From Microlunatus parietis (GTDB lineage Bacteria > Actinomycetota > Actinomycetes > Propionibacteriales > Propionibacteriaceae): 64,000 nucleotides of DNA. The DNA lies in assembly GCF_013407955.1 (NCBI RefSeq), contig NZ_JACCBU010000001.1, positions 6,634,001 through 6,698,000 of the forward strand, given 5' to 3'. Shown here piece after piece: positions 10,386 through 39,239 of the stretch (position 1 is its first letter; the number at the start of each line of letters is the position of its first letter). The notes below the pieces were generated by a model. The model was given only the letters and a program-made list of their open reading frames with translations. It ran no database searches and had not been told where the DNA came from. Made by a program: the position numbers and the translations under genes.

Positions 10386-10478
10386 GTCGTCCTGGTCCGG
10401 CGGGTTCACCCGCGCCGGGGAGTTCGTTCACCCCGCCACCGGATCCCCGTACCGGTCGCAGACGGGAGGCTTGAGGCC

Positions 10479-11715: not shown

Positions 11716-11759
11716 CGGCGGCTCCTCACTAAGCTGATCCGTCGATCCTGCCACGAGTG

Positions 11760-18952: not shown

Positions 18953-19007
18953 CGGCCCATCCTTACATCCGGCACAACACCCGCCCCGTGCGCCCCACTT
19001 CCCCAAC

Positions 19008-19073
19008 TTTCCTGTCGCTTTACGTGAGAAGTATCTGTGGGGAAGCGCTAGTTTTTCACGTTACGTGAAAAAC
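19008..19073 (-). repeat. two-hairpin 3' element, copy 1
   Basis: A perfect 23-bp palindrome (half-site GTTTTTCACGT, 19051-19073) is followed on the minus strand by a second structure in which CTTCCCCA (rc of 19039-19046) pairs with TGGGGAAG (rc of 18998-19005 region). The same element, about 75% identical over ~66 bp including TTTCCTGTCGCTTTA, occurs after the IclR gene at 31410-31486. Here it overlaps the last codons of the ABC ATPase gene. Confidence 0.75.
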
Positions 19074-21317: not shown

Positions 21318-21329
21318 CGCGCGCGCTCC

Positions 21330-23464: not shown

Positions 23465-23466
23465 CG

Positions 23467-25461: not shown

Positions 25462-25535
25462 GGCGTGCTACCTCACTCGGGTGCGTCGGGTGGGCGGCGC
25501 CGTGACCACTGGAGCCCCAGTGCCCCCCGAACCAC

Positions 25536-25575
25536 TATTTTCCAAATATCGGACATAACTTCGATGTCTCGATGG
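25536..25575 (+). promoter_or_regulatory. tandem 20-bp operator, site 1
   Basis: TATTTTCCAAATATCGGACA (25536-25555) is followed directly by TAACTTCGATGTCTCGATGG (25556-25575). Together with four other sites they define a 20-bp unit, roughly TATCTTCGNNATNTCGNNAA, in which C7 and G16 are invariant in all ten units. It lies 75-115 bp upstream of the ABC binding-protein start. Confidence 0.6.
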
Positions 25576-25676
25576 TTCTCTGAATCTAAATCTGCTGTGA
25601 ATCCCCGTCAAGGGTTCCCGGGTGCTCCTGGATCGTTGTAACCCGAACGTTCCCTGAGCGCCCGGCCCGGGGCCGT

Positions 25677-27122
25677 TCAGCTCTGTGGCTGTTGCCGGTA
25701 CGCGGCGCCGACCGCCTCGATGATCTGCGCCGGACGATCCGGTACGAAGACGTCGACCAGGCCTACGATCGGTCCGCCGGAGGACCTGACCTGCCAGGCA
25801 GCGGGGTCCTCGAAGCCGGGATCGGCCAGGCTGAATCCGATCGTCTCCAGATGATCAACTCCGACGTCGACGCTGCGCCCCGAGATGTCGCGCAGGGCGG
25901 TCAGCCGGAAGCTCAGCGTCGCCTCGGTCTTGCCGATCATGGCCGAGGAGACGTCGAACTGGCCCTGCGGATCGAGTCCCTGCACCCAGAGCTGCTGCCA
26001 GGTGGCGTCGTGCACGTCGGCGGCCCAGACCTGGGCGCCGTCGACCAGGACCAGGATCCGGAAGTCGCCGCGCTGCGGGATCCGCCACAGCTGCAACGCC
26101 CGGGAGTGCCAGAAGCTCAGCTCGTAACGCGGACTGCCCGGATCGATCGTGATCTTGGTGGACAGCTCCGCGTAGTCGCCGGCCTTGATCCGGGCGTGCG
26201 AGGCGACCAGGGCACCGCGGCCGTCGCCGTACATCGACCGGCGCTCGTTCGCTACCGTCGGGGCGCCATCGACCTGGAGCCCGTACGAGACGACGCCGAA
26301 GGTCTCGCCCTCGGCGGCGGCCTGGACCGCCTGGCTGACACAGGAACCGGCGTACTCGGCGGTCGGCGCGAGGACCCCGTCCAGGAACCGGCCGGTGTAG
26401 ACCAGGAAGATCAGCCCGACGTCGTGCCGCCGGGCCACCTCGTTGATCTCGGTGATGTCCTGCCGGACCCGGTCGGTCACGATCGTGTTGATGTTCGGCC
26501 CGTCCAGGTACGGATAGATGATGCCGTCGATGTACGGCCCGTACTTGATCATGAACTCGTCCGACGTCGCCGAACCGTGGTAGGCGCAGGTGAAGAAACC
26601 CAGGTCCGGGTTGATCGCGAACTGAGCCTCCCGGATCTCGGCGAGGTATTCCGGGGTGAACACGGCGGGGTTGTCGCCGCAGTCGAAGTCGTCGATCGCC
26701 CAGCCGGTGAGCACCGGGTATTCCAGCGACAGCTCCGCCAGTGCCTTCGCCCAGGCCAGGTAGTCCATCACGTACGGCCGCGAGGCACGGCCCCAGCTGT
26801 AGGTCTCGGTCGGCGGCACGATGTACGGCAGCAGCTGGATCCCGGCGGCCTGGGCGGCCGGCGCGAACTCCAGCCGCAGGTCGTCGAAGTCGGTCGGCGA
26901 GTCCCAGATGCCGAAGAAGTAGTGGTTCGCGCCGATCCGCTGCAGGAGTTCGATCATGGCAGGGGTGTCGACGTGGCGGTAGCCATCCTTGCGGGGTTCG
27001 GCCTCACGGATCCAGCCGCCGACCGTATTGCCGCCGGGGAGTGCGGACTTGATGCCGCCCGGCGGCAGCCCGGCCTTGAATCCGGGAGCGCGGTAACGTC
27101 GGGGGAGTTGATCTTGGGACAT
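25677..27122 (-). CDS. glycoside-hydrolase-like TIM-barrel protein of unknown function
   Basis: A 481-residue cytoplasmic-looking protein (no signal). Residues about 30-300 read like a TIM barrel of the glycosidase type: MIELLQRIGANHYFFGIWD, AGIQLLPYIVPP, VLTGWAIDDFDCGDN (acidic cluster at a strand end, candidate active site), DGIIYPYLDGP and GLIFLVYTG. The C-terminal third (about 320-465) resembles a beta-sandwich carbohydrate-binding domain (ELSFWHSRALQLW, FRILVLVDGAQVWAADV). I do not recognise a named family. It lies between the ABC operon and a divergent aldose-epimerase gene with shared operators, so a role in glycan or glycoside processing is inferred. Confidence 0.6.
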   Translation of the reverse strand: MSQDQLPRRYRAPGFKAGLPPGGIKSALPGGNTVGGWIREAEPRKDGYRHVDTPAMIELLQRIGANHYFFGIWDSPTDFDDLRLEFAPAAQAAGIQLLPYIVPPTETYSWGRASRPYVMDYLAWAKALAELSLEYPVLTGWAIDDFDCGDNPAVFTPEYLAEIREAQFAINPDLGFFTCAYHGSATSDEFMIKYGPYIDGIIYPYLDGPNINTIVTDRVRQDITEINEVARRHDVGLIFLVYTGRFLDGVLAPTAEYAGSCVSQAVQAAAEGETFGVVSYGLQVDGAPTVANERRSMYGDGRGALVASHARIKAGDYAELSTKITIDPGSPRYELSFWHSRALQLWRIPQRGDFRILVLVDGAQVWAADVHDATWQQLWVQGLDPQGQFDVSSAMIGKTEATLSFRLTALRDISGRSVDVGVDHLETIGFSLADPGFEDPAAWQVRSSGGPIVGLVDVFVPDRPAQIIEAVGAAYRQQPQS

Positions 27123-27157
27123 GGTGTCGGTGCTCCGATCGAGCCAACGATGGCGAC

Positions 27158-27197
27158 TATCTTCGAATTACGGAAAATAAGACCAATATCTCGTTGA
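27158..27197 (+). promoter_or_regulatory. tandem 20-bp operator, site 2
   Basis: TATCTTCGAATTACGGAAAA (27158-27177) followed by TAAGACCAATATCTCGTTGA (27178-27197). It lies in the 122-bp gap between the divergent TIM-barrel and epimerase genes, so it could control both. Confidence 0.6.
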
Positions 27198-27244
27198 TCA
27201 AGGTAACCTACCGTTCGGCGGATCCGCAACGGGCAGGACGGACG

Positions 27245-28075
27245 ATGGACCGAGTTCATGATCATGGGCCAGACCAGTTGCTGGTGCTGGAGACGGCCCG
27301 CAGCCGGGCCACGTTCAGTACGGAGGCCGGGCGGCTGACGTCGCTGGTCTTCGGTGCACATCAGGTGATCGTCGGGCCGGAGCAGCAGCCGCCGCCCCGC
27401 GGCTCCTGGTTCTGGGGCTCGTTCGTGATGGCGCCCTGGACCAGCCTGATCCGCGACGCCGTCTTCGAGTTCGGCGGCACCACCCACCGGCTGCCCGCCG
27501 ACGACGGCCGGCATGCCGTGCTGGGACTCACCTGGAAGCTGCCCTGGCGGATCGACGGCGACCGGTTGGTCTGCGATCTGGACCAGGGCAGCGGTTGGCC
27601 GTTCGGCGGCCGGGTCATGATCATCCCGAAGCTGTCCGAGGGCCGGCTGCGGGTGGTGCTGCGGGTCCAGGCCGGCGACCGCGAACAGCCGGCCGCGGTG
27701 GGCTGGCATCCGTGGTTCGCCCGCGAACTGCCGGGCTCCGGTCCGGTCGAACTCGGCCTGGCCGGACCGGTCTGGCGGCAGCATCGCGATGCCGACGAGG
27801 CACCGACCGGGCTCTGGCAGACGGTCGATCCGGCCGAACGCGCCCTCAACGACTGCCTGCAGGTCGCCGGGCCGACGACGCTGACCTGGCCCGGCGTCGG
27901 ATCCTTGGAGATCGCCCACGATTCTCCGTACCTGACGGTCTATTCGGTCCACCCGCGCGGGATCTGTGTCGAGCCGGTGACCAGCCCGGCCGAACGGATG
28001 GACCACCTGCTGCGCCCGGGCGAGGCGCTCGACCTGACCATCGACCTCGCCTGGCGCGACGAGGAGAATCACTGA
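27245..28075 (+). CDS. aldose 1-epimerase-like protein
   Basis: A 276-residue galactose-mutarotase-like beta-sandwich. Visible: LTSLVFGAHQVIVGPEQ, GSWFWGSFVMAPWTSLI, GLTWKLPW, VGWHPWFAREL (His candidate) and VEPVTSPAERMDHLLRPGEAL, the C-terminal Glu region of the family. Start taken as the ATG at 27245 with AGGACG upstream rather than the longer frame from 27194. It is followed after 2 bp by the enolase-superfamily gene, forming an operon. Probably interconverts sugar anomers for the catabolic pathway. Confidence 0.8.
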   Translation: MDRVHDHGPDQLLVLETARSRATFSTEAGRLTSLVFGAHQVIVGPEQQPPPRGSWFWGSFVMAPWTSLIRDAVFEFGGTTHRLPADDGRHAVLGLTWKLPWRIDGDRLVCDLDQGSGWPFGGRVMIIPKLSEGRLRVVLRVQAGDREQPAAVGWHPWFARELPGSGPVELGLAGPVWRQHRDADEAPTGLWQTVDPAERALNDCLQVAGPTTLTWPGVGSLEIAHDSPYLTVYSVHPRGICVEPVTSPAERMDHLLRPGEALDLTIDLAWRDEENH

Positions 28076-28077
28076 TT

Positions 28078-29196
28078 GTGAACCGTTCCCTGCAGGCCAC
28101 CGTGGCCGAACTCAAGACCGTGGCGATCAGCCCGCGGGTCAAGCCGGAGCTGCTGGTCAGTGGTGCTCGCGGCAGCCACGACCGGAGCGACTTCCTGCTG
28201 GTCAAGATGATCACCTCGGCCGGCGTCGCCGGGATCGGCGAGGTGAGTGCGACGCTGACCTGGAGCGGCGAGGACTCGACCACCGCCCAGCACGTGATCG
28301 ACACGGTGCTGCGGCCGGCCCTGATCGGCAAGCCGCTGACCCCGGTGGCCGAGCTGGAGGCCGCGATGGACACCGTGCTGGCCGGGCACCCGTTCACCAA
28401 GGCGGGGATCTCGATCGCGCTCTGGGATGCGTACGCGCGGACGCTGGACGTGCCGCTCGCGGTGGCGCTCGGCGGCCCGCGCCGGACCGACATCGCGGTG
28501 AAGTGCTCACTCAGCGGCAACGGCGAGCGGCTGCGGACCGGGCTGGAGCACGCCCGGGCGGCCGGCTTCGAGGCGTACAAGATCAAGATCGGGATGGACG
28601 TCCCGACCGACGTGGCGCGGCTGCGGGAGTTGCGCGAGCTGGTCGGTTCGGACGCGTTCATCGGCCTGGACGCCAACGGGGGCTACAGCCGCACCGCCGC
28701 CCGGCGGGCCGGCCGGCTGCTGCTGCCGTACGAGCCGGCCTTCTTCGAGCAACCGGTGCAGCCGGGCGACCTGCCCGGGATGGCCTCGCTCCGTGATCTT
28801 GGACTGCCGATCGTCGCCGACGAGAGCGTCTTCGGGATGGACGACCTGATGGCCGTGCTGGCCGCCGACGCGGCCGACGTGATCAGCCTCTACGTCGGCA
28901 AGAGCGGCGGTCCCGGCCGTGCCGTCGCGATGGGCCGGATCGCCGCCGCGGCCGGTCTGGATGTGATCATCGGCTCCAACGGGGAGCTCGGCGTCGGTGC
29001 CGCGGCCCAGCTGCACGTGGCCTGCGCCCTGGACCGGCTGTCGGAGGAGATCCCGTCCGACATCATCGGCGCCCATTACTACACCAGCGACATCCTGGCC
29101 GGCGGCCTGGACGCCACCGGAGTCCGGGCCCGTCTCGGCGACGGACCCGGACTCGGCGTGACGCTCACGGAAGACCTCGAGGCGGCCTTCCGCTGA
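28078..29196 (+). CDS. mandelate racemase/muconate lactonizing enzyme family protein
   Basis: A 372-residue enolase-superfamily enzyme of the MLE subgroup. The catalytic set is complete: Lys-x-Lys in YKIKIGMD, metal ligands Asp in GLDANGG, Glu in FFEQPV and Glu in VADESV, and the facing Lys in LYVGKSGGPG. Chemistry could be cycloisomerisation, epimerisation or acid-sugar dehydration. With KDG kinase, KDPG aldolase, a DapA-family aldolase and lactonase-like genes nearby, a sugar-acid dehydratase or a cycloisomerase acting on a sugar lactone is the best inference. GTG start at 28078 with GAGGAG upstream. Confidence 0.87.
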   Translation: MNRSLQATVAELKTVAISPRVKPELLVSGARGSHDRSDFLLVKMITSAGVAGIGEVSATLTWSGEDSTTAQHVIDTVLRPALIGKPLTPVAELEAAMDTVLAGHPFTKAGISIALWDAYARTLDVPLAVALGGPRRTDIAVKCSLSGNGERLRTGLEHARAAGFEAYKIKIGMDVPTDVARLRELRELVGSDAFIGLDANGGYSRTAARRAGRLLLPYEPAFFEQPVQPGDLPGMASLRDLGLPIVADESVFGMDDLMAVLAADAADVISLYVGKSGGPGRAVAMGRIAAAAGLDVIIGSNGELGVGAAAQLHVACALDRLSEEIPSDIIGAHYYTSDILAGGLDATGVRARLGDGPGLGVTLTEDLEAAFR

Positions 29197-29210
29197 AGGT
29201 TCAGGGTCCG

Positions 29211-29651
29211 TCACATCAGTTCGAGGTCGACTCCGAGGCTCAGGTAGACCTCGGCTGCTCGGCGGTCACGGCTGACCAGCGGCAGTTCGTGTTCCCGGGC
29301 CGCGCATCCGACGAGTGCGTCATAGATGCTGCCGCCGGAGATTCCTAGCTTGGTGAACTCGGCCAACAGTGTGCTGGACCGCTCTGCCGAGATGAACCTG
29401 CTGTCCGGGAAGTTGTGCTCGATCAGGCGTCGTGCCGCTTCCGGAGCAAGTCGCTGCGGGGGTGGGAGGCGGGTCAGGATCGAGAAGGTCTCGAACAACG
29501 CATGACCGGCGAGCCCCATGGATCGTGCCGACAGCCGATCGAAGGTGTCCTCGTGACCCGGATGATCGGGTTGAACGAAGGCGATCGCGGTGCTGGTGTC
29601 GAGCAGGCATTCCGAGCTCGGAACGCGCCGCGTCCTACGCCTGGTCGGCAA
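29211..29651 (-). CDS. PIN-domain toxin, VapC-like
   Basis: A 146-residue PIN-domain RNase, the probable toxin of a type II toxin-antitoxin pair. The acidic residues of the active site are all visible: Asp in LLDTSTAIAF, Glu in HALFETFSIL, Asp in SIYDALVGCAA and Asp in LVSRDRRA. The start is a TTG at 29651 that overlaps the end of the antitoxin gene by 17 bp; there is no better start before the first motif. It sits inside the catabolic island and is unrelated to it in function. Confidence 0.85.
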   Translation of the reverse strand: MPTRRRTRRVPSSECLLDTSTAIAFVQPDHPGHEDTFDRLSARSMGLAGHALFETFSILTRLPPPQRLAPEAARRLIEHNFPDSRFISAERSSTLLAEFTKLGISGGSIYDALVGCAAREHELPLVSRDRRAAEVYLSLGVDLELM

Positions 29652-29868
29652 GGCGCAGCTCTCGAATGTCTTGATCGGTCAGACTTCCGTCCGCCGTGGG
29701 CAGGAGCAGGAACCCGTCGTGCTCGACGAGTTCGTCGGTGGTCACGGGAGCGATCGAGAGGGTCGATCCTTCGATCGTGATCTCGACCTCGCCTGCCGAC
29801 ATTCCTACCCGATCGCGCAGTGCCTTGGGAATGACCAGTCGCCCGGCACGATCGATGGTGGTTCTCAT
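29635..29868 (-). CDS. AbrB/MazE-type antitoxin, VapB-like
   Basis: A 77-residue SpoVT/AbrB-fold DNA-binding antitoxin: MRTTIDRAGRLVIPKALRDR then GEVEITIEGSTLSI. The acidic C-terminal tail would wrap the toxin. It overlaps the PIN-domain gene, as usual for such pairs, and the pair most likely represses its own promoter in the gap at 29869-29940. Confidence 0.88.
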   Translation of the reverse strand: MRTTIDRAGRLVIPKALRDRVGMSAGEVEITIEGSTLSIAPVTTDELVEHDGFLLLPTADGSLTDQDIRELRLADQA

Positions 29869-29942
29869 ACCACTAGCTTACCAAGCAAATTTCCATGGCT
29901 GGTGCCGGAATATTGGCAAACCGATCTTGATCATGAATGTCC

Positions 29943-29985
29943 AGAAAAGGCAGACGCCGCCCTCCGGTGCGGAAGGCGGAGTCTG
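29943..29985 (-). terminator. terminator of the Rid gene
   Basis: On the minus strand a stem CAGAC-CCGCC/GGCGG-GTCTG with one mismatch, extended inward by TCCG/CGGA, is followed by CCTTTTCT. It lies 12 bp past the Rid stop codon. Confidence 0.7.
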
Positions 29986-29996
29986 GGAGAGCTGGG

Positions 29997-30470
29997 TCAG
30001 TCGGCGAGCTGGAAGATCGCCTCGATCTCGACCGGGCTGTTGGTCGGCAGGGCGGCCAGGCCGAGGGCGGCGCGGGTGTGGAACCCGATCTCCGGGCCGA
30101 ACACCTCGAGGAAATACTGCGTCGCGGCGTGGCCGACCAGGTGTTGGTCGGTGAACGACGGGGCGCTGGCGACGAAGATCGTGACCCGGGTGACGCCGGT
30201 GATCGCGTCCAGGTCGCGGCCGGCCTTGATCAGCTCGCCGCGGGCGGCCTCGACGACGTTGCGGGCGCACTGCCAGGCGCACCGCCGTGCCGTGTCAAGA
30301 TCGATTCCGTCGCCGACGATGCCCTCGGCGATGTTCGTGCCGTCGATGTGGGCGGTCTGGCCCGAGGTGATCAGCTGGTCGCCGTAGATCCGGGCCGGGG
30401 CGATCGTCGGCGGGGCGGACTGGGCGGGCGGCTCGGCTGCGGCGGACTGGTGGCGTTCGGCGGCGGTCAC
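29997..30470 (-). CDS. Rid (YjgF/YER057c/UK114) family protein
   Basis: A 157-residue Rid-family protein. Members of this family hydrolyse reactive enamine/imine intermediates or act as related deaminases. Visible: IYGDQLITSGQTAHIDG, ARRCAWQCARNVVEAARGEL, VTRVTIFVASAPSFTDQ, and the conserved Arg of the active site in HTRAALGLAALPTNSPVEIEA. A ~25-residue Ala/Pro-rich N-terminal extension is unusual. It is divergent from the IclR regulator with an operator between them. A pathway producing imines or 2-keto-sugar-acid enols would explain its presence. Confidence 0.87.
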   Translation of the reverse strand: MTAAERHQSAAAEPPAQSAPPTIAPARIYGDQLITSGQTAHIDGTNIAEGIVGDGIDLDTARRCAWQCARNVVEAARGELIKAGRDLDAITGVTRVTIFVASAPSFTDQHLVGHAATQYFLEVFGPEIGFHTRAALGLAALPTNSPVEIEAIFQLAD

Positions 30471-30496
30471 GGAAAGGCTCCTCCGGTGCGGGTCGG

Positions 30497-30536
30497 CATG
30501 CGAGATTTCGAAGATGTCTCCGAAGTTTCGCAGAGA
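30497..30536 (-). promoter_or_regulatory. tandem 20-bp operator, site 3 (Rid/IclR divergent promoter)
   Basis: On the minus strand TCTCTGCGAAACTTCGGAGA (30536-30517) is followed by CATCTTCGAAATCTCGCATG (30516-30497). It lies between the divergent rid and iclR-type genes, consistent with autoregulation by the IclR protein. Confidence 0.6.
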
Positions 30537-30578
30537 TCATACGGCGGTCCGCGGGCGGGTGCCTCTATTCTGTCCGTT

Positions 30579-31379
30579 ATGGCAGGGACCACAACGACCG
30601 AGACCAAGGCGCCGTCGCAGTCGGTCGCGCGCACGCTGACCGTGCTGGAGACCCTGGTCGCGGCCGACGACGGGATGACCCTGACCGCGCTCGCCCAGGC
30701 GACCAGGATTCCGCTGGCGACCTGCGCCTCCATCGTCTACACGCTCGAGCAACGCGGGTACGCCGCACGCAAGGTGGTCGGCCGGAGCCACTTCTGGCGT
30801 GCCACCCTCGGCCTGTACGGGCTGGCCACCCAGCTGGTCCGCAAAGTTGATCTTGCGACCGTGTCCCAGGACGAGATGCGCGCGCTGGCGATCGAGATCA
30901 ACATGCCGGTGCACATCGGCGTCCTGAACGGCGCCTCGGTGGTCTACGTCGCCAAGGCGGCGACCTCGGACTTCATCCAGTTCGACACGTACCCCGGCAA
31001 GATGGCGCCCTACAACCTGACCGCGCTGGGCAAGGCGATCGCCGCCTTCCTGGACGAGGAACGGCTCAGCCCGCTGCTGAACCAACTGAGCAAGGGCGAG
31101 GGACCCGGCGCCCTGCCCGCCGGTCGGAAGGCGTTCCTGAACCAGCTGGCCGAGATCAAGACCCGTGGGTACGCGATCGAGGTGGAGGAGGAACGCGCCG
31201 ACATCGCCTGCGTCGCGGCACCGTTCTTCGACGCCGAGGGCGGCCCGGCCGGCGCGGTCGGCGTCACCGGCTTCAAGCGCGACCTGGTCGGCGACCTGCT
31301 CCAGCGCACCACCGACGGCCTCACCCACATCGCCGCCACCATCTCCACCCGCCTCGGCTACCACGCCGCCCTGCGCTGA
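30579..31379 (+). CDS. IclR family transcriptional regulator
   Basis: A 266-residue IclR protein. The N-terminal winged helix (about 15-75: SVARTLTVLETLVAADDGM, then IPLATCASIVYTLEQRGYA) and the C-terminal effector domain (VYVAKAATSDFIQF, NLTALGKAIAAF, GYAIEVEEERADIACVAAPFFD) are clear. It is the only IclR gene in the window. Start at ATG 30579. Because the tandem operator is found in its own upstream region and at four more promoters of the island, it is the candidate controller of the whole catabolic set; the inducer is unknown. Confidence 0.9.
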   Translation: MAGTTTTETKAPSQSVARTLTVLETLVAADDGMTLTALAQATRIPLATCASIVYTLEQRGYAARKVVGRSHFWRATLGLYGLATQLVRKVDLATVSQDEMRALAIEINMPVHIGVLNGASVVYVAKAATSDFIQFDTYPGKMAPYNLTALGKAIAAFLDEERLSPLLNQLSKGEGPGALPAGRKAFLNQLAEIKTRGYAIEVEEERADIACVAAPFFDAEGGPAGAVGVTGFKRDLVGDLLQRTTDGLTHIAATISTRLGYHAALR

Positions 31380-31409
31380 CCCCCGCGCCCGCCCGCCCCG
31401 CGCGCGCCC

Positions 31410-31486
31410 GCCAGTTTTTCACGTAACGTGAAAAACTGGCGCTATACCACAGTTGCTTCTCTGGTAAAGCGACAGGAAACCTGGTG
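31410..31486 (+). repeat. two-hairpin 3' element, copy 2
   Basis: A perfect 31-bp palindrome (half-site GCCAGTTTTTCACGT, 31410-31440) is followed by ACCACAG..TTCTCTGGTAAAGCGACAGGAAA, the counterpart of the sequence at 19008-19050. It begins 30 bp after the IclR stop. Both copies have the same orientation relative to the gene they follow. Confidence 0.75.
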
Positions 31487-31570
31487 AGGCGGGGCTGGTG
31501 GGGTCGGTGGTTCCCGCTGCGCTCACGGAGGCCGGGGTGATCTTGCATCGACGTCGGATGGGCATTAGCC

Positions 31571-31610
31571 TTTGTTCGGCGAGGTGAAAGTATCTTCGCT
31601 ATTTCGAATC
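31571..31610 (+). promoter_or_regulatory. tandem 20-bp operator, site 4
   Basis: TTTGTTCGGCGAGGTGAAAG (31571-31590) followed by TATCTTCGCTATTTCGAATC (31591-31610), ending 24 bp before the start of the Gfo/Idh gene. The second unit is close to consensus, the first is weak. Confidence 0.55.
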
Positions 31611-31634
31611 CTCGACGGCGGGGGTGATCATCGG

Positions 31635-32660
31635 GTGACGGAGTCAGCGGCTCAGCGTGCGGCCCCGCGCGTGGCACTGGTCGGGCTCGGCGCGATCGGG
31701 TCCACGGCTCATCTTCCGGCCTTGCTCCGGTCCAGTCGGCTTCGGCTGGTCGCCGTGGCCGATCCGTCCCCGGAGCGCCGCGCGGTGATCGGCACGGAGC
31801 TGGCCCGGGCCGGCCGGGACGACGTGGCGATCCTCGATGATCTTGAGGCTGTGCTCGCCGCAGGCGTCGACGGGGTGGTGCTGGCGACGCCGCCCTGGGT
31901 CACCCCAGACCTCGCGGTACGGGCAGCGCAGGCCGGGATCGCCGTGCTGGCGGAGAAGCCGGTCGCCCCGTCGATCGAGGACGCGGACCGCTACCGGGTG
32001 CTCGACGCCGATCAGCGGGCCAGGATCCAGATCGGGCTGACCTATCGCCACGACCCGGCCCTGGACAAGCTCCGTACCTTGATCAAGGACGGTGCGCTGG
32101 GCCGGCCGCTGCTGGTCCGGGCGTCGATCTACGACGAGCCGGCCGACGGCGACCCGGCGCACGACCGGTTGATCACCGAGACCCTGAAGCACGGCTCGCC
32201 GGTGATCCACGAGGGCGCCCACGTGTTCGACTGGCTGACCAGCCTGTTCGGCGGGCCGGGCGAGATCGACGACGCCTGGGCCCTGACCACCAGGCCCGGC
32301 CTCGCCGCACCGAACCTGATCGGCGGCCGGCTGACGTACCCCGGCGCGACGGTGCTGGTCGAGTTCGGCTGGTACACGCCGATCCTGCCCGGCTGCGTGT
32401 TGATCTTCGTCGGCGACGGCGGCTTGGCGACCCTGGACGGCGGCAGCTTCGGCCTCACCGTCGAACTGGCCGGACGGCCACTCCAGCGGTACGAGTTCCA
32501 GCCGGACCGGGCCACCCGCTGCTTCGACCGGCAGGCCGTCCGGTTCGCCGATCTGTTGGCCGGTGGCCGTGCCGAACCGAGCCTCGACGACGGCATCGCC
32601 GCGCTGATCACCAGCCAGCGGCTGCAGCAGCTGGCAACATCGGCAGGAACGAACCGATGA
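31635..32660 (+). CDS. Gfo/Idh/MocA family oxidoreductase
   Basis: A 341-residue NAD(P)-dependent sugar or inositol-type dehydrogenase. Rossmann motif ALVGLGAIGSTAHLPAL near residue 12, the VLAEKPVAPSIEDADRY motif with the catalytic Lys, then GSPVIHEGAHVFDWLTSLFG with the His of the family. GTG start at 31635 is chosen because the conserved Rossmann strand begins soon after; the frame from 31572 would run through the operator. First gene of a seven-gene operon to 36891. Likely oxidises a sugar to a lactone. Confidence 0.87.
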   Translation: MTESAAQRAAPRVALVGLGAIGSTAHLPALLRSSRLRLVAVADPSPERRAVIGTELARAGRDDVAILDDLEAVLAAGVDGVVLATPPWVTPDLAVRAAQAGIAVLAEKPVAPSIEDADRYRVLDADQRARIQIGLTYRHDPALDKLRTLIKDGALGRPLLVRASIYDEPADGDPAHDRLITETLKHGSPVIHEGAHVFDWLTSLFGGPGEIDDAWALTTRPGLAAPNLIGGRLTYPGATVLVEFGWYTPILPGCVLIFVGDGGLATLDGGSFGLTVELAGRPLQRYEFQPDRATRCFDRQAVRFADLLAGGRAEPSLDDGIAALITSQRLQQLATSAGTNR

Positions 32661-32673
32661 GGAGTGATCACCG

Positions 32674-33447
32674 ATGACCGTTCGCTACTGGGCCGAGACC
32701 GACCGGGAGACGCTGACCCGGCTGTTGCCCGAAGCGCTGGTGCTGCTGCCGATCGGGGCCACCGAGCAGCACGGCCCGTACCTGCCGACCGGGACCGACC
32801 ACCTGCTGGCCGGCGAGGTCACTGCCCGGGCCGCGGAGCGGGCCGCGACGAACCTGTCCACCGAGTTGTTGATCACGCCGACGCTGCCGGTCGGCGCCTC
32901 CGATCATCACCTGCCGTTCGGCGGCACTCTGTCGATCAGCCCGGCCACGCTGACCACGATGCTGACCGAGATCCTGTCCTCGATCGTGGCCTGCGGCGGC
33001 CGCCGGGTGCTGATCGTCAACGGGCACGGCGGCAACATGGGCGGCTGCGCCGCGGCCGCCGCGGCCGCCACCAACGCGGCGCCGGAGCTGATCGTGGGAC
33101 ACCTGGACTACTGGGCCGCGGGCGGCCAGGACCGTTCCCGCTGGACGGCCCGGGCGACCTGCACCGGCCCGGTGCCGGGCCACGCCGGCGAGTTCGAGAC
33201 CGCGATGATCATGGCCGTACGGCCGGAGCTGGTGCCGGACCGCCCGATCCGTTCGGATCCGCCGGCGATCGGCTCGTCGACCGGCGGCGCGACGATCCAC
33301 GCCGCGGGGGCCTGGCTGGCCACCGACGGGTACACCGACCATCCGGAACGCGCGACGGCCGCCCTCGGCCGGGAACTGCTCGACGAGCTGGTCGCCGCGA
33401 CCGAGTCCGTGATCATGGAACTGGCGCAGGAGGAGACGAACACATGA
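32674..33447 (+). CDS. creatininase family protein
   Basis: A 257-residue metal-dependent amide/lactone hydrolase. Metal-ligand motifs are in order: LLPIGATEQHGPYLPTGTDH (Glu, His, Asp), VNGHGGNMGG (His) and GHAGEFETAM (Glu). Members include creatinine amidohydrolase, MftE and enzymes opening small cyclic amides or lactones. Placed right after the Gfo/Idh dehydrogenase, opening the product lactone is a reasonable inference. Confidence 0.85.
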   Translation: MTVRYWAETDRETLTRLLPEALVLLPIGATEQHGPYLPTGTDHLLAGEVTARAAERAATNLSTELLITPTLPVGASDHHLPFGGTLSISPATLTTMLTEILSSIVACGGRRVLIVNGHGGNMGGCAAAAAAATNAAPELIVGHLDYWAAGGQDRSRWTARATCTGPVPGHAGEFETAMIMAVRPELVPDRPIRSDPPAIGSSTGGATIHAAGAWLATDGYTDHPERATAALGRELLDELVAATESVIMELAQEETNT

Positions 33448-33499
33448 CCCCACCCCACGAATCGCTCCGCTTCGCTCCACGATTCGCGAGGACCCCGAG

Positions 33500-34267
33500 G
33501 TGATCGACTTCCACACCCACACTCCGGCCTGGGAGACGGCGACGTGGCTCGGTGGAGCCACGTTCGGTGCCACCGAGTTCGTCGAGTTCATGGACATCGC
33601 GGGCATCGACCGGGCCGTCGTGCTCAGTCACGACGGGCTGTTCAATTCCACGCCGCAGGCCAACGAGGCGTTGGCGGCCTTCGTCGCCGAGTATCCCGAC
33701 CGGCTGATCGGCTTCGGCTCCTACAACCCGCGCCGGCCGGAGGCCCTGGCGGAGACGAAGCGGAGTTTCGCCGAGCTCGGGCTGCGCGGGCTCAAGCTGC
33801 ACCCTTGGTTGCAGGGCTTCAGCCCGCACGAGACGTCGCTCGATCCGATCATGGAGGTGGTGGCGGAACATTCCGGCATCCTGCTCTGCCATGACGGTAC
33901 GCCGCCGTACTCGACCGCCGGGCAGATCGCGGCGCTGGCCCGGCGGCACCCGACCGTACCGGTGGTGCTCGGCCATGCCGGGCTGCACGACCTGTGGCGG
34001 GAGTCGCTGGCGTACACGAACGAGACGGAGAACCTCTACATCTGCATCTGCGGTACGCCCCCGTACGCGGCCCGGGAGATCTGCCGCCGCGGCGCACCGG
34101 GCAAAGTGCTGTTCGGCACCGACGCCGGCCTGTCCGACAAGGCCAGCCAGGACTACGCCCAGGCTCGCGTGCTCGAGATTGATCACTGGGGCATCACCGC
34201 GGAACAGAAGCAGGCCATGTTGATCGACAACCCCGCCGCACTGCTGGAGAGGCTCACGCGTTCATGA
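33500..34267 (+). CDS. amidohydrolase family protein (PF04909-type), first of three
   Basis: A 255-residue TIM-barrel metal hydrolase or decarboxylase. It has the full metal set: HxH in MIDFHTHTP, His in GLKLHPWLQG, His in LLCHDG, His in VVLGHAGLHD and Asp in LFGTDAG. GTG start at 33500 follows a 52-bp gap that contains a small CGAATCG/CGATTCG hairpin. Overlaps the second amidohydrolase gene by ATGA. PF04909 enzymes open lactones or decarboxylate aromatic and sugar-derived acids; substrate unknown. Confidence 0.82.
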   Translation: MIDFHTHTPAWETATWLGGATFGATEFVEFMDIAGIDRAVVLSHDGLFNSTPQANEALAAFVAEYPDRLIGFGSYNPRRPEALAETKRSFAELGLRGLKLHPWLQGFSPHETSLDPIMEVVAEHSGILLCHDGTPPYSTAGQIAALARRHPTVPVVLGHAGLHDLWRESLAYTNETENLYICICGTPPYAAREICRRGAPGKVLFGTDAGLSDKASQDYAQARVLEIDHWGITAEQKQAMLIDNPAALLERLTRS

Positions 34268-35154
34268 TCGTCGACGTCCACTGCCATACGCCCACCCACA
34301 CCCACGAGGTGCCGGAGGAGGACTTCCGGTCGTTCAGCGCCTGGCGCACCGACCGCGACGTGGTCACGTCCAACACCTGGGCCGACTTCGACGCGGCGAT
34401 CGAGCCGGCGGACGTGGCGATCGTGTTCAACATCGCCGCTGACGACCCGCTCGGCTCGACCGGCCTGTCCTACCGGCCCGAGGACACGAACACGGCGACC
34501 GCCGCCTACGTGAAGGAGAACCCGACCAAGGCGATCGGCTTCATGTCGGTCAACCCGACCAAACCGGATGTCTGGGACGAGGTCGAACGGGCCCGCGAGC
34601 TCGGGCTGGTCGGCGTCAAGCTCGGCGCCAACTACCAGGAGTTCGAACCGCTCGGGAAGCCGGCGCTGGAGTTCTACGCGTACTGCGAGCGCGAAGGTCT
34701 GCCGATCTTGTTCCATCAAGGCGCCTCGCCGATCCGGCACGCGCCCTTGCGGTATACGTTTCCGCTGGTCACCGACGAGGTCGCGATCGCGTTCCCGGAA
34801 CTGCGGATCGTGATGGCGCACATGGGTCATCCGTGGGCCCGGGAGACCGTCGTGACGATCCGCAAGCACCCGCACGTGTACGCCGACGTGTCCTCGATCT
34901 ACCTGCGGCCGTGGGTGCTGTACGAGTCGCTGCTGTTCGCCACCGAGTGGGGTGCGGCCGGGAAGCTCTTGCTGGGTTCGGATTTCCCGATCGCCACCAC
35001 CGCGGAGGCGATCGCCGGGCTGCGCCGCGCGAACGACATCGTCGAGGGTACGAAGTTTCCCAGGATCCCCGACGAGGTGATCGAGAACATCATCAACGCC
35101 GACGCACTCGGCGCGCTCGGGCTGGCAGACCCGCGGGGGAGGACCAAGTCATGA
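34264..35154 (+). CDS. amidohydrolase family protein (PF04909-type), second of three
   Basis: A 296-residue TIM-barrel amidohydrolase with HxH in VDVHCHTPTH, His in LFHQGAS, His in IVMAHMGHPWA and Asp in LLGSDFPIA, so the catalytic core is preserved. It has a longer N-terminal lid region than its neighbour (RPEDTNTATAAYVKE). It is translationally coupled on both sides (ATGA overlaps). Confidence 0.83.
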   Translation: MIVDVHCHTPTHTHEVPEEDFRSFSAWRTDRDVVTSNTWADFDAAIEPADVAIVFNIAADDPLGSTGLSYRPEDTNTATAAYVKENPTKAIGFMSVNPTKPDVWDEVERARELGLVGVKLGANYQEFEPLGKPALEFYAYCEREGLPILFHQGASPIRHAPLRYTFPLVTDEVAIAFPELRIVMAHMGHPWARETVVTIRKHPHVYADVSSIYLRPWVLYESLLFATEWGAAGKLLLGSDFPIATTAEAIAGLRRANDIVEGTKFPRIPDEVIENIINADALGALGLADPRGRTKS

Positions 35155-35900
35155 TCATCGACGCCCACGTGAGGATCGGGCAGCAGCGGGAGTGTGCGCT
35201 CGAGGTCGCCGAGCTGTTGTCGATCATGGACGAGCACGGCATCGACAAGACCATGATCGCGCCGAGCGAGGCGCAGATCGCGTACGCCAACCGAGCCGGC
35301 AACGAGGCCACCGCCGCTGCGGCCGCAGCCTCGAGCGGTCGGCTGATCCCTTACGCCGTGGCCAATCCCTGGGCCGGCGACGATGCGGTCGCCGAGCTGG
35401 AGCGGGCCCATGCCGCCGGCGCCCGAGCCCTGGCGGTGGACTCCAGCCTGCAGGGCTTCGACCTGCTGGACGGGCTGGTCGACCCGCTGCTCTCGTACGC
35501 GGAGTCGGCGGGCTGGTTCGTCTACGTCCGCACCGGCACTCCACCCGGCCACCTGCCGTTGCCGCTGGCGCTGCTGGCCCGCCGATTCCCCAAGATCGAC
35601 TTCCTGATGGGCCGCAGCGGCGCGACCGACTTCTGGATCGACGCAGCGCCCGCCTTGCGGTACGCGCCGAACCTCTACGCCGACACGAGCTACGCACCGT
35701 GGGACACGGTGCTCTCGGAGTTCGTCCGGGATCCCGAGATCGGGGCGTCCCGGGTGATATTCAGCACCGATCTGCCGTACGCGACGCCGGCCGGTGAGGT
35801 GAAACGGATCCGGGACTGGCCGATCGGCGACGACGAGAAGGCCGCCGTCAGCGGCGGCACGCTGGCCAGGCTGCTCGAGCGCGGGACGGACCGGGCCTGA
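35151..35900 (+). CDS. amidohydrolase-like protein lacking metal-binding histidines, third of three
   Basis: A 249-residue protein plainly related to its two neighbours, but the key histidines are missing: the first strand reads IIDAHVRIG instead of HxH, the His of LCHDG/LFHQG is Arg (VYVRTGTPPG), and that of GHAG/AHMG is Arg or Ser (LMGRSGATD). The Asp (FSTDLP) remains. The reading frame is whole and codon use normal, so this looks like a maintained pseudoenzyme, perhaps a regulatory or structural partner, rather than a decaying gene. Confidence 0.78.
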   Translation: MIIDAHVRIGQQRECALEVAELLSIMDEHGIDKTMIAPSEAQIAYANRAGNEATAAAAAASSGRLIPYAVANPWAGDDAVAELERAHAAGARALAVDSSLQGFDLLDGLVDPLLSYAESAGWFVYVRTGTPPGHLPLPLALLARRFPKIDFLMGRSGATDFWIDAAPALRYAPNLYADTSYAPWDTVLSEFVRDPEIGASRVIFSTDLPYATPAGEVKRIRDWPIGDDEKAAVSGGTLARLLERGTDRA

Positions 35901-35901
35901 G

Positions 35902-36891
35902 ATGACCATGATCACGTCCCAACGTCCTTCGACCGGCTCAGGACGCAGTCCGGCGGAGGCCGCCGCGCTGATCCGCGGCGTCTCCCCGGTGCTGGAGGTG
36001 CCGTTCACCGACGACGGCGAGATCGCCGTCGAGGACTTCCGGCGCGTCGTCCGGTACGTCGTCGGGACCGGTGTCACCAGCGTGATGTTCCCGGGCTTCG
36101 CCGGCGAGTTCTACAAGCTGTCCGAGGAGGAGCGGCGGCTGCTCACCGAGATCTTGATCACCGAGGTGCGTGAACTCACCGTCGACACCGGGACCGAGGT
36201 GGCGGTGATCGCGGCGGTCCAAGATCACGCCACTCGGCTCGCCGTGCAGCGGGCCCGCTGGTCGGTCGAAGCCGGTGCCGACGCGATCAACCTGTTGCCG
36301 CCACACCTGCTGGCGCCCTCGGCGTCCGCGATCGAGGCGCACCTGCGGACCGTGCTGGCCGCGGTGCCGGACACCGCCGTGGTGCTGCAGTACGCGCCGG
36401 CGGAGACCGGAACGAGCCTGGATCCACAGGGCCTGGCAGGCCTGGTCCGGGATCATCCCAACCTGGTCCTGGTCAAGGTCGAGTCGTCGCCGCCGGGGCC
36501 GTACATCGCCGAGCTGGGCCGGCTCGACCCGCCGATCCCGGCCGTCGAGGGCTATGCCGGCGTGCAGCTGCCGGACGCGTTCCGGCGCGGCTGCGTCGGC
36601 ACCCAGCCCGGCTGCTCGCTGACCGAGGTCTACTGCGAGATCTGGCGCCGCTTCTCCGACGGTGATCTTGCCGGCGGGGACCGGCTGCACGCCCGGCTGC
36701 TCCCGTACATCTCGTACTGGATGCTCGACACGGAGCGGATCATCGCGACCGAGAAGATGATCTCGTACCGGCGCGGGCTGATCCAGAGCCCGCACTGCCG
36801 GCCGCCCCGGCACGACCTGGACGCCGAGGAACTGGCCATGATCGACCGCTTCCTGGCCGAGTTCGGCGACCTGCTGCCGTCGCTGCGTTGA
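35902..36891 (+). CDS. dihydrodipicolinate synthase (DapA) family aldolase
   Basis: A 329-residue class I aldolase/lyase of the DapA/NanA family. Schiff-base Lys in LVLVKVESSPPG, the Tyr in VVLQYAPAETG and an N-terminal GVSPVLEVPFTDDGEI are visible, and the GxxGE-like loop is PGFAGEF. Catabolic relatives split 2-keto-3-deoxy sugar acids to pyruvate. Residues 7-15 (QRPSTGSGR) are encoded by a copy of the dispersed element, so the N-terminus is extended. It is the last gene before a terminator. Confidence 0.86.
   Translation: MTMITSQRPSTGSGRSPAEAAALIRGVSPVLEVPFTDDGEIAVEDFRRVVRYVVGTGVTSVMFPGFAGEFYKLSEEERRLLTEILITEVRELTVDTGTEVAVIAAVQDHATRLAVQRARWSVEAGADAINLLPPHLLAPSASAIEAHLRTVLAAVPDTAVVLQYAPAETGTSLDPQGLAGLVRDHPNLVLVKVESSPPGPYIAELGRLDPPIPAVEGYAGVQLPDAFRRGCVGTQPGCSLTEVYCEIWRRFSDGDLAGGDRLHARLLPYISYWMLDTERIIATEKMISYRRGLIQSPHCRPPRHDLDAEELAMIDRFLAEFGDLLPSLR
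35924..35944. repeat. variant copy of the dispersed element in the DapA-family gene
   Basis: A symmetrical variant with core CCTTCGACCGGCTCAGG lies 22 bp into the gene and adds residues before the conserved start of the domain. Confidence 0.85.
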
Positions 36892-36913
36892 TCAGCGTTT
36901 CGGGTGCGTAACA

Positions 36914-36939
36914 GGGTGCCGAATTCCTTGCAGGCACCC
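36914..36939 (+). terminator. terminator-like hairpin after the DapA-family gene
   Basis: GGGTGCC and GGCACCC arms (36914-36920, 36933-36939) around a 12-nt loop, 22 bp past the stop. No clear T-tract. Confidence 0.55.
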
Positions 36940-36955
36940 GCCGCTCGGCGTACAG

Positions 36956-36995
36956 TTCTCAATATTCTGGATACGTTTACGACATACTGAAGATA
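36956..36995 (-). promoter_or_regulatory. tandem 20-bp operator, site 5
   Basis: On the minus strand TATCTTCAGTATGTCGTAAA (36995-36976) is followed by CGTATCCAGAATATTGAGAA (36975-36956). It ends 17 bp before the start of the sugar-type binding-protein gene and links the MalEFG-like transporter to the same control. Confidence 0.55.
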
Positions 36996-37011: not shown

Positions 37012-38358
37012 ATGAGACGGCGGGAACTCTTGTTCGGCGCGGGGGCCGTAGCGGCCGGGATGGCGCTGTCGGGGTGCAGTGCGGGCGGGGGCGGGACGCC
37101 GTCCGAGGCGCCGAAGGCCGAGGACTGGCGGTCGCAGGTGACTGGCGGCCCGATCGAGGCCGGGGTGCTGACGGCCAAGGGCACGCCTGGGCTCACGTAC
37201 CTGGAGCAGCTGGCGAAGAAGATCGAATCCGAGGTCTCCGGAGCCGAGATCACGTTGACGTTCGCCAACACCGAGGCCCGGCCGGCGCTGGAGCAGCGCT
37301 GGCGCGGCGGCGACGGCCTGGACGTCGACTACGGCATGTTCGACGGTACGAATCCGGCGCAGCGGATCTGGGCCGACGACGGGATGCTGCTCGACCTGAA
37401 GCCGTACCTCGAGCAGAACGACCCGGCCACCGGCAAGCCCTGGCTGGAGAACTTCTCGCCGGCGGCCCGCGGCTTCATGACCCACCCGGACACCGGCGGC
37501 ATCTTCGGCGTGCCGACCGAACTGTCCACCCAGGTGCTCTTCTACAACGCCAAGCTCTTCACCGAGAAGTCGATCACCCCGCCGACCACCTGGACCGAGC
37601 TGATGGCCGCGGTGGAGGCGCTGAAGTCGGCCGGGGTCGACCCGATCGCCGTGACCGGGCTTTTCCAGCCCTACATGGGCATGTGGTCGGACAACCTGTG
37701 GTTGCGCACGGTCGGCTGGGAGGCCGCCAACAAGGTGCTGGTCACCGGCGAGGGCCACATCACCGAGAACCCGGGCTTCCTGGCCGGGCTGCAGCACGTC
37801 CAGGAATTGCGCGACGCGAGCGCGTTCATCAAGGGCTTCCAGGGCACCGACTTCACGCCCGCTCAGGCGCTGTTCTTCCAGAACAAGGCCGGAATGATCT
37901 TGATGGGCAACTGGCTGGTCAGCGAGATGAAGGCCGTGATCCCGAGGGGCTTCGAGGTCGGCGTGCTGCCGTTCCCGGCGGTCGACGGCGGTGCCGGTGA
38001 TCAGCAGGCGCTGATGGCTGCCGCGCAGTTGATCTCGATCAACGCCCAGAGCAAGAACCTCGGGATGGCGCTGACCTGGGCCAGCCGGCTGACCAGCGTC
38101 GAGGTGCAGACGGAGCGGGCCACCAAGCTGGGCGATCTCTCCGCCGTCGTCGGCGTACCGAGCCCGACCGGCGTGACCGGAATCGACAAGATCATCAGCG
38201 AGGCGTCGGCCCTGGTGCCGCGCGAGTTCTCGCTCAGCGGGACCAAGGTGTACGAGCCGTATTACGCCGAGATCGCCCGTTTGTTCTTCGGTGAGCAGGA
38301 CGCTCAGCAGACCCTGGACCGGCTGGACGCGATGCTGCGCAAGCAGCACAAGAACTGA
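37012..38358 (+). CDS. sugar-type ABC transporter substrate-binding lipoprotein (family 1)
   Basis: A 448-residue extracellular binding protein. It has an MRRRELLFGAGAVAAG twin-arginine-like start, lipobox ALSGC and a Gly/Pro-rich linker, then a type of core seen in family 1 binding proteins (LTFANTEARPALEQRW, GVPTELSTQVLFYNAKLF, PPTTWTELMAAVEALK). ATG at 37012 follows GGAGGGGGAG. It heads a complete MalEFG-type operon without an ATPase; such systems commonly share an MsmK-like ATPase encoded elsewhere. The ligand is probably a mono- or oligosaccharide. Confidence 0.9.
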   Translation: MRRRELLFGAGAVAAGMALSGCSAGGGGTPSEAPKAEDWRSQVTGGPIEAGVLTAKGTPGLTYLEQLAKKIESEVSGAEITLTFANTEARPALEQRWRGGDGLDVDYGMFDGTNPAQRIWADDGMLLDLKPYLEQNDPATGKPWLENFSPAARGFMTHPDTGGIFGVPTELSTQVLFYNAKLFTEKSITPPTTWTELMAAVEALKSAGVDPIAVTGLFQPYMGMWSDNLWLRTVGWEAANKVLVTGEGHITENPGFLAGLQHVQELRDASAFIKGFQGTDFTPAQALFFQNKAGMILMGNWLVSEMKAVIPRGFEVGVLPFPAVDGGAGDQQALMAAAQLISINAQSKNLGMALTWASRLTSVEVQTERATKLGDLSAVVGVPSPTGVTGIDKIISEASALVPREFSLSGTKVYEPYYAEIARLFFGEQDAQQTLDRLDAMLRKQHKN

Positions 38359-38360
38359 TC

Positions 38361-39239
38361 ATGTTCGCCCGGTCCCAGCGGCTGATCACCATCCCCTTCC
38401 TGCTGCCGGCGCTGGCCCTGCTGGGGACGTTCTTCCTCTTCCCGCTGGGCCGGACGTTCGTGATCTCCCTGAGCGAGTACTCGCGGACCGGCCGGTCGAC
38501 GCTGGTCGGGTTCGAGAACTATCTCGGCGTGTTCGGCGACGGCGACTACCTGAACTCGCTGCGCAACGCGATCCTGCTCGCGGTGATCGGCGGGTTCATG
38601 CTGTTCCCGCCGGCGATCGCGATCGCCTGGGCGTTCCACCACCGGCTGTACGGAGAACGGGTCTTCCGGTTCCTGATCTTCTCGCCGGTGGTGCTCTCGG
38701 TCGCAGTCGTCGCGCTGATGTGGACGTTCATCTTCCATCCGACGTTCGGCTTGATCAATCCGACGTTCGCCGCGATGGGGCTGGGTGACCTGATCCCGGT
38801 GCTGCTCGGCGATCCGCGGACCGCGCTGCCGGCGGTGGCGTTCGCGGCGGTCTGGCACGGGATCGGGATCTGGATCATCCTGATCTCCGCCGGCTTCGCC
38901 CGGCTGCCCGGCGAGGTGATCGAAGCGGCCCGGATCGACGGGGCGGGGGAGTGGCAGATCTTCTGGCGGATCATGCTGCCGATGATGAGCGACCTGTTCC
39001 GGGTGCTGATCGTGCTGTGGTTCGTGCAGAGCCTGCAGGCGTTCGCGTTCGTCTTCATCATGACCGGCGGCGGCCCGTTCGGGTCGACCGAGATCACCGC
39101 CACCCTGATGTACCGGACCGCGACCGACCAGGCCGACTACGGCTACGCGGCCGCGATGGGCATCGTGCTGGTGTTGATCTTGCTCGTCGTCGCGCTGGGG
39201 CTGAACCGGCTGTTGAAGCGAGACGATCTTGAGTACTGA
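38361..39239 (+). CDS. ABC sugar transporter permease (MalF/UgpA-like)
   Basis: A 292-residue permease with six TMs and the EAA loop EVIEAARIDGAGEWQIFWRIMLP. It starts 2 bp after the binding-protein stop and overlaps the next permease gene. Confidence 0.92.
   Translation: MFARSQRLITIPFLLPALALLGTFFLFPLGRTFVISLSEYSRTGRSTLVGFENYLGVFGDGDYLNSLRNAILLAVIGGFMLFPPAIAIAWAFHHRLYGERVFRFLIFSPVVLSVAVVALMWTFIFHPTFGLINPTFAAMGLGDLIPVLLGDPRTALPAVAFAAVWHGIGIWIILISAGFARLPGEVIEAARIDGAGEWQIFWRIMLPMMSDLFRVLIVLWFVQSLQAFAFVFIMTGGGPFGSTEITATLMYRTATDQADYGYAAAMGIVLVLILLVVALGLNRLLKRDDLEY

Follow-up and report, generated by a model that had tools for sequence, protein, structure and literature searches.

Paired Palindromic Sites in Microlunatus parietis and a Proposed IclR-Type Carbohydrate Regulon

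Introduction

What kind of control do genes share when the same kind of 40-bp site stands in five of their promoter regions, and is the regulator encoded among them the protein that binds there? This question is raised by a 64,000-nt stretch of Microlunatus parietis (positions 6,634,001-6,698,000 of NZ_JACCBU010000001.1; GC content 70%), hereafter the window, whose coordinates are used throughout unless genome positions are given. The answer proposed here on the basis of sequence comparison, with a probability of about 0.83, is that the IclR-family protein encoded at 30579..31379 (+) has its operators at these sites: it would bind them as paired dimers, repress transcription by blocking the promoter, be released by an inducer and govern a dispersed carbohydrate regulon.

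The proposed repressor carries the Pfam domains HTH_IclR (PF09339, 38.0 bits) and IclR_C (PF01614, 100.2 bits), both above cut-off, and belongs to the IclR family. As a first-pass annotation of this DNA had pointed out, its gene is the only IclR gene of the window and is located at the third of the five sites. The genome as a whole holds at least 42 matches to PF09339 at E 0.001, of which 16 exceed 40 bits (150 of 514 first-look candidates were scored).

Tandem Sites in the Window

The first-pass annotation had described five 40-bp sites with an exact period of 20 bp, and all of them are present, with C7 and G16 in all ten 20-bp units and T12 and T14 in eight of the ten. It had read the unit as a direct-repeat element. 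The unit is, however, a palindrome that has the core TTCGAWATWTCGAA and is centred between unit positions 11 and 12; the sites are recovered by a strand-symmetric matrix, and the direct-repeat reading was dropped. One site consists of two palindromes, a strong box and a weak box, 20 bp centre to centre, that is, of two putative dimer sites and not of two direct half-sites. The units occur where they had been placed, except that the symmetric register starts one base later on the given strand (e.g., 25537-25556).

The boxes were scored with an independent matrix, trained solely on 29 strong boxes from other genomes. These 29 were chosen from 46 boxes at related loci, a number that leaves aside boxes scoring at least 14 inside genes or far from the cluster. 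The 17 boxes outside the matrix are all six of Microlunatus speluncae, one of genome G011, two of G115, four of Amycolatopsis (near-duplicates and one more), one of Mumia (a second box) and three of Nakamurella.

At 25537..25576 (-), before the SBP_bac_5/opp operon, the strong box is on the gene side (25537-25556, score 26.5) and is followed by the weak box (25557-25576, 14.8). The site facing the TIM-barrel-like gene, at 27159..27198 (-), has a strong box at 27159-27178 (22.8) and a weak box at 27179-27198 (9.2). Between ridA and iclR, at 30496..30535 (-), the strong box lies on the ridA side (30496-30515, 15.3) and the weak box at 30516-30535 (6.2), and by the window's own matrix these two boxes are almost equal (20.4 and 20.3). 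On the other strand, the site of the Gfo/Idh operon, at 31572..31611 (+), comprises a weak box at 31572-31591 (-3.7) and a strong box at 31592-31611 (23.2), and that of the operon of a MalE-type binding protein, at 36955..36994 (+), a weak box at 36955-36974 (13.2) and a strong box at 36975-36994 (20.4). The units 27178, 31571 and 36956 had been named as the weakest; this is partly right, the independent matrix giving the lowest scores to 31572, 30516, 27179 and 36955, in that order. The sites are also directional: the strong box assigns the 27159 site to the TIM-barrel-like gene instead of the epimerase gene, and the 30496 site to ridA instead of iclR.

With the independent matrix, nine of the ten window units fall within ranks 1-12 of 63,981 places. 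When each tandem site was scored by a matrix built without it, the ranks of the five were 5, 5, 6, 9, and 6 of 127,922 placements in the window, the four higher-ranking places being the training sites themselves. Palindrome centres 18-22 nt apart, as expected of tandem sites, are clear at 20 bp in four window sites, while the fifth has a poor second box; in other words, the window holds four 20-bp pairs with both boxes at 0 or above, plus one site that joins 23.2 to -3.7. The only other window box scoring at least 14 (10194-10213) lies inside a 253-aa open reading frame (9624-10385) and, with a partner score of -40.5, was taken as chance.

The checks proposed along with the motif included a comparison with shuffled upstream regions and a scan of the own and related genomes. 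As regards the former, 150 Markov-1 random windows contained no strong box with a 20-bp partner. As regards the latter, 800 kb of the own genome (40 evenly spaced 20-kb stretches) contained one box scoring at least 14 and no 20-bp pair with both boxes at 0 or above, and the sites recur at the IclR ortholog in related genomes, as described below.

Across 34 aligned sites, T25, C27, and G36 are found in 34/34, A31 in 33/34, and G28 and T32 in 32/34; column 24 is mixed (C 18, T 13, A 2, G 1). The strong box holds approximately 26.6 bits, against approximately 14.2 bits for the weak box. Even so, the weak box retains both half-sites (C in 30/34, G in 32/34), its inner half (7.5 bits) being slightly better kept than its outer half (6.7 bits).

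Sites Elsewhere in the Genome

The own genome was scanned with two models: (i) R1, built on the sequences alone of 22 foreign tandem sites (23 minus one duplicate) picked for a second box at 20 bp; and (ii) R2, which includes 11 own sites and whose own-genome matches are in-sample except that at genome 5277358. R1 yielded 16 matches at E<=10 in 11 places, four of them in the window, and R2 yielded 19 matches in 12 places, five of them in the window.

Six outside sites have a second box at 20 bp. They precede a DHDPS-family gene (genome 40,925; second box 11.0), an 813-aa TIM-barrel-like paralog (3,175,769; 9.1), an SBP_bac_5 gene whose product is 74% identical to that of the window (4,377,374; 7.2), a GH116 gene (4,651,069; 3.4), a 683-aa TIM-barrel-like paralog followed by a GH43 gene (4,884,463; 7.7), and the gene of an 846-aa protein (5,291,345; 6.6). 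The seventh site (5,277,358), at a Gfo/Idh gene, has its second box at 19 bp, and the eighth (1,705,969), before a fourth TIM-barrel-like paralog, is a pair at exactly 20 bp (7.5/4.9) in the expected order. Taking the own loci together, 10 of 11 pairs are spaced 20 bp. The first-pass annotation had proposed an IclR-type regulon of the genes from 19 to 40 kb. That the sites are operators of the neighbouring IclR protein is well supported, if indirectly, by the boxes beside the IclR orthologs, by co-occurrence among congeners and by the published motif type. The regulon, however, would not be bounded by 19-40 kb: with the eight further places, it would be a dispersed set for carbohydrate uptake and breakdown.

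A single-unit pattern also matched five of the six outside 20-bp places; with at most two mismatches, it gave six outside matches, three of which are counted sites. Its matches at 175920 and 3257835 have no box of at least 14 and were rejected; the remaining one is at 3475070. Likewise, a site near genome 29,030, found by R1 and not by R2 at the start of a GNAT-like open reading frame, was not counted. At another locus (L059), a GH95 gene (9801-12152, -) lies near a box at 9047 that was matched by R1 only.

Direction, Promoters and Proposed Mechanism

The 11 own sites with a 20-bp pair comprise six between non-diverging genes and five between diverging genes. In all six of the former, the strong box is the one nearer to the downstream gene. 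Nine of the 11 own sites have the centre of the strong box 22-47 bp ahead of the start codon; for the two SBP_bac_5 genes the distance is 83-86 bp. The Gfo/Idh start used for this distance was three bases off, and the start read from the sequence, GTG at 31635, gives about 34 bp.

Promoters are predicted at three of the window sites. That of the SBP_bac_5 gene, at 25583..25611 (-), consists of a -35 element TTGACG (25611-25606), 17 bp and a -10 element TAGATT (25588-25583), just upstream of the weak box; identical hexamers with identical spacing are found at the 74% identical paralog near genome 4377374. The other two are 31543..31571 (+), with TTGCAT (31543-31548), 17 bp and TAGCCT (31566-31571), and 36928..36956 (+), with TTGCAG (36928-36933), 17 bp and TACAGT (36951-36956). 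The two SBP_bac_5 genes (L060, 9373-9415; window, 25535-25611) have in common the promoter hexamers, the operator and the unusually long distance of 83-86 bp to the start.

A wider set of 28 chosen sites (11 own, four of M. speluncae, nine of J. muralis and four others) was searched for the pattern TTGnnn-(16-19)-TAnnnT with the -10 element within columns -14 to +8, the weak box beginning at column 2. A sigma-70-like promoter reaching the weak box is present in 16 of the 28 sites and, on the opposite strand, in none. In addition, CTTG occurs at -40 to -21 in 16 sites, versus 0 on the opposite strand and approximately 1.3 expected from the genome background. Outside the boxes, no column is conserved across the 28 sites. 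Since the promoter runs into the operator in one direction only, promoter-blocking repression is the best reading.

The mechanism that we infer is as follows. Two IclR dimers, forming a tetramer, would bind the pair of palindromes, which lie on one face of the helix at a distance of 20 bp; the strong box adjoins the gene and the weak box the promoter. Transcription would start inside the weak box. Once bound, the protein would lie over the -10 element and about the first 30 bases of the transcript, and transcription would be blocked until a catabolite releases the repressor. Loading may be cooperative: the strong box would nucleate binding, and the weak box would seal the promoter and ease release.

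The same protein could instead bind these sites as an activator or in a dual role. The IclR family does include activators and dual regulators, according to the study of Suvorova and Gelfand (2021; PMC8222616), and 12 of the 28 sites are without a recognisable promoter of the kind sought. Nevertheless, in the 16 sites that have one, the boxes stand at and downstream of the -10 element and not upstream of the -35 element, and the strong boxes of nine of the 11 own sites are centred as close as 22-47 bp to the start codon, all of which makes activation an improbable alternative.

Related Genomes and the Identity of the Binding Protein

IclR orthologs of 60-93% identity are found in M. speluncae, Jiangella, Amycolatopsis, Mumia, Nakamurella, G011 and G115. 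Boxes stand beside the ortholog and cluster genes in 15 of the 16 related loci scanned, and the genes behind them are Gfo/Idh, ridA, DHDPS, SBP1 or other cluster genes; the sixteenth locus (L028, A. taiwanensis, with a partial IclR match) has no boxes there. A box lies upstream of the Gfo/Idh ortholog in seven related loci (M. speluncae, G011, G115, three Jiangella, and Nakamurella). M. speluncae has counterparts of all five window sites, each with a box 20 bp away (second-box scores 10.2, 7.1, 5.8, 4.5, and 8.0); the counterpart of the 25537 site, for instance, scores 15.6/10.2. A further 20-bp pair was seen in Nakamurella (L026, 1928-1965; 15.0/14.9 by the window's matrix), some 6 kb from the nearest mapped cluster gene.

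Boxes were also found away from the main locus in other genomes. Those of M. speluncae precede two TIM-barrel-like paralogs, an 831-aa homolog of the 846-aa protein and an Amidohydro_2 gene, and those of Jiangella precede genes for a binding protein, permeases, GH43, an 831-aa homolog and a LamG protein. The strong boxes of these nine outlying sites score 24.0-33.5.

An IclR ortholog at E<=1e-40 is present in three of 20 genus genomes, the own one included (G000, own; G011; G019), and these three have 15, 2, and 10 R1 matches at E<=1, respectively. Among the 17 congeners without the ortholog, only one has any R1 match at E<=1 (G012, two matches at 0.51). At E<=1e-60, a search for the IclR protein across 198 genomes of the taxonomic family also matched G115 and G100.

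These distributions bear on a second alternative, namely that another IclR-type paralog binds the operators, or that several proteins share them and the adjacent gene encodes only one of these. The genome has many IclR-type genes, and different IclR proteins have similar motifs (PMC8222616). Yet it is the ortholog of this very IclR protein that accompanies the sites in all but one of the 16 related loci, and 16 of the 17 congeners that lack it are without sites despite carrying 4-22 loose first-look IclR-like candidates each, so that another binder is somewhat less probable still than activation. As for chance similarity of AT-rich promoters or a dispersed repeat with no regulator behind it, the sites are indeed AT-rich within a 70% GC window, but their rarity in the genome sample and the random windows, their conservation at orthologous genes across genera and, unlike in a mobile repeat, the lack of any conserved column outside the boxes leave this explanation with hardly any probability.

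Weight of the Evidence

Several observations weigh against operators of this IclR protein that act by blocking the promoter. In the window, the weak box 31572-31591 is poor (rank 148 of 63,981), and R1 missed the 27159 site; moreover, R1 was built from 20-bp pairs, and hence the spacing at the places that it found is partly selected. Regarding direction, the five own sites between diverging genes provide no test and were assigned by the strong box. The range allowed for the promoter was set after looking at the alignment, its pattern is absent in 12/28 sites and, a free promoter score favours the forward strand in just 21/28.

Regarding other genomes, the first scan of related loci used the window's own matrix. 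For 22 of the 29 strong boxes, the highest-scoring partner in a range of 70 bp lies exactly 20 bp away; these include orthologous sites of sister species and hence are not 22 independent cases. In the other seven it is not at 20 bp: one box of A. antarctica, the downstream site of A. rubida and that of A. circi, one of A. anabasis (best partner at 31 bp; the one at 20 bp scores 4.7), two of Mumia and one of Nakamurella. By genus, the exceptions are 4/10 in Amycolatopsis, 2/3 in Mumia (19 and 21 bp) and the one box used in Nakamurella, pairing being less exact in the latter two genera. In four of the nine outlying M. speluncae and Jiangella sites, the score of the box at 20 bp is negative. The recognition helix of the IclR helix-turn-helix is better conserved than the effector domain (mean identity 0.93 vs 0.63 in 12 of the available orthologs), which speaks for the proposal but is usual for regulators. 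One of the other IclR-type genes of the genome could share the motif. Confidence in the proposal is put at about 0.83, slightly lowered because only six of the 11 own sites test direction and because four of the nine outlying foreign sites have a poor second box.

Genes of the Putative Regulon

The putative targets within the cluster, classified by Pfam, are (i) the operon of oppF, oppD, oppC, oppB and the SBP_bac_5 binding protein (19048..25461, -); (ii) the RidA/YjgF-like gene (29997..30470, -); (iii) the operon of Gfo/Idh, creatininase-like, three Amidohydro_2 and DHDPS-family genes (31635..36891, +); and (iv) the operon of a sugar-type SBP_bac_1 binding protein and two permeases (37012..40140, +). 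To these is added the TIM-barrel-like gene (25677..27122, -). An aldose 1-epimerase-like gene (27245-28075, +) adjoins the 27159 intergenic region, and an MR/MLE enolase-superfamily gene (28069-29196, +) lies downstream of it (both by Pfam); control of either by the 27159 site is uncertain. A penicillin-binding-protein-like gene (16985-19006, -), whose NCBIfam matches are all below cut-off, adjoins the opp operon, and no operator is linked to it.

Matches to Pfam, NCBIfam and PDB suggest that a sugar or sugar acid is oxidised, hydrolysed, dehydrated and cleaved in an aldol-type reaction. The creatininase-like protein also matches IolN (3-dehydro-scyllo-inosose hydrolase) with a score below cut-off. 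The gene set looks like one for oxidative breakdown of a sugar or sugar acid, whose identity is not fixed by the matches.

The TIM-barrel-like protein (481 aa) has no sequence match in Pfam, NCBIfam or PDB, and was not placed in any known glycoside hydrolase family there. Its structural model (predicted local distance difference test, pLDDT, 81.4) alternates strands and helices and then forms a beta sandwich, that is, a predicted TIM barrel plus beta sandwich with a weakly glycoside-hydrolase-like fold. The 50 listed Foldseek matches are mostly glycoside hydrolases, at 7-16% identity and E 4e-10 to 3e-6, with TM-scores as low as 0.24-0.38 by query length. On this modelled fold, a glycosidase role is likely. 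The 813-aa and 683-aa proteins are its paralogs, and four members were found in the own genome (8 of 13 first-look candidates scored), each behind an operator: the window gene and those at 1705969, 3174297, and 4882975 of G000:C1. The fourth was found by protein search and its operator pair afterwards, as predicted. At E<=1e-20, the family occurs in four of 197 genomes of the taxonomic family (G000, G011, G019, G078).

The 846/831-aa family has no Pfam match and is present in three species (L039, 9387-11864; L063, 9308-11803; L067, 9350-11845). The homologs of the 846-aa protein found behind an operator box are 51% (Jiangella) and 44% (M. speluncae) identical to it. Each member stands behind a strong operator box, with a second box below 0 in L063 and L067. 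The model of the 846-aa protein (pLDDT 46.7) was not used.

Among the titles and abstract openings listed for open-licence papers, supplementary tables apart, none named this regulon, and a literature search in such papers for a carbohydrate gene set of this kind gave nothing. While control by paired IclR operators is already known, the gene set seems to be undescribed, as do some of its enzymes. The odds are about even that the regulon marks an undescribed actinobacterial carbohydrate degradation pathway, with at least two undescribed enzyme families (TIM-barrel-like and 846-aa) under one IclR repressor.

In any case, the locus offers a testable regulator-operator pair together with a list of putatively co-controlled genes, through which functions may be assigned to proteins that the searched family libraries leave unnamed. 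The operator led to paralogs in trans, and its presence in the promoter of the fourth was predicted correctly. Furthermore, the strong/weak order and the adjoining promoter provide a clear and testable example of the way in which promoter blocking by a paired IclR operator could work.

Comparison with Known Systems

Proteins of the IclR family bind as dimers or tetramers (PMC8222616). The IclR protein of Escherichia coli belongs to the same family, but differs in its target (the glyoxylate bypass) and in its operator sequence (PMC8222616). The three-box sites of the PcaU type resemble the present ones in the core TTCGATWATCG and in an extra box beside the palindrome (PMC8222616). Unlike in PcaU, the second element keeps both half-sites here. 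TtgV is likewise a member of the IclR family, and its structure is among the sequence matches of the present protein. The target of TtgV is solvent efflux, which differs from the targets proposed here.

The closest parallel is found in the tandem palindromic IclR sites with centres 18-22 nt apart (mainly 19-21), which are reported for 94 orthologous groups, are tied to tetramers and mostly lie 20-80 nt before the gene (PMC8222616). Within the even-spaced subgroup NGTYCRAW4TYGRACN (PMC8222616), G and C flank the core (NGT-12-ACN); the present sites do not have this flank, and show Y/R instead. Their core, on the other hand, agrees with the consensus of the even-spaced group 1 (TYCR...YGRA with a centre of 3-4 W). 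Two palindromes 20 bp apart make the present system a case of the tandem kind, with the difference that an order of strong and weak box relative to the gene is seen here.

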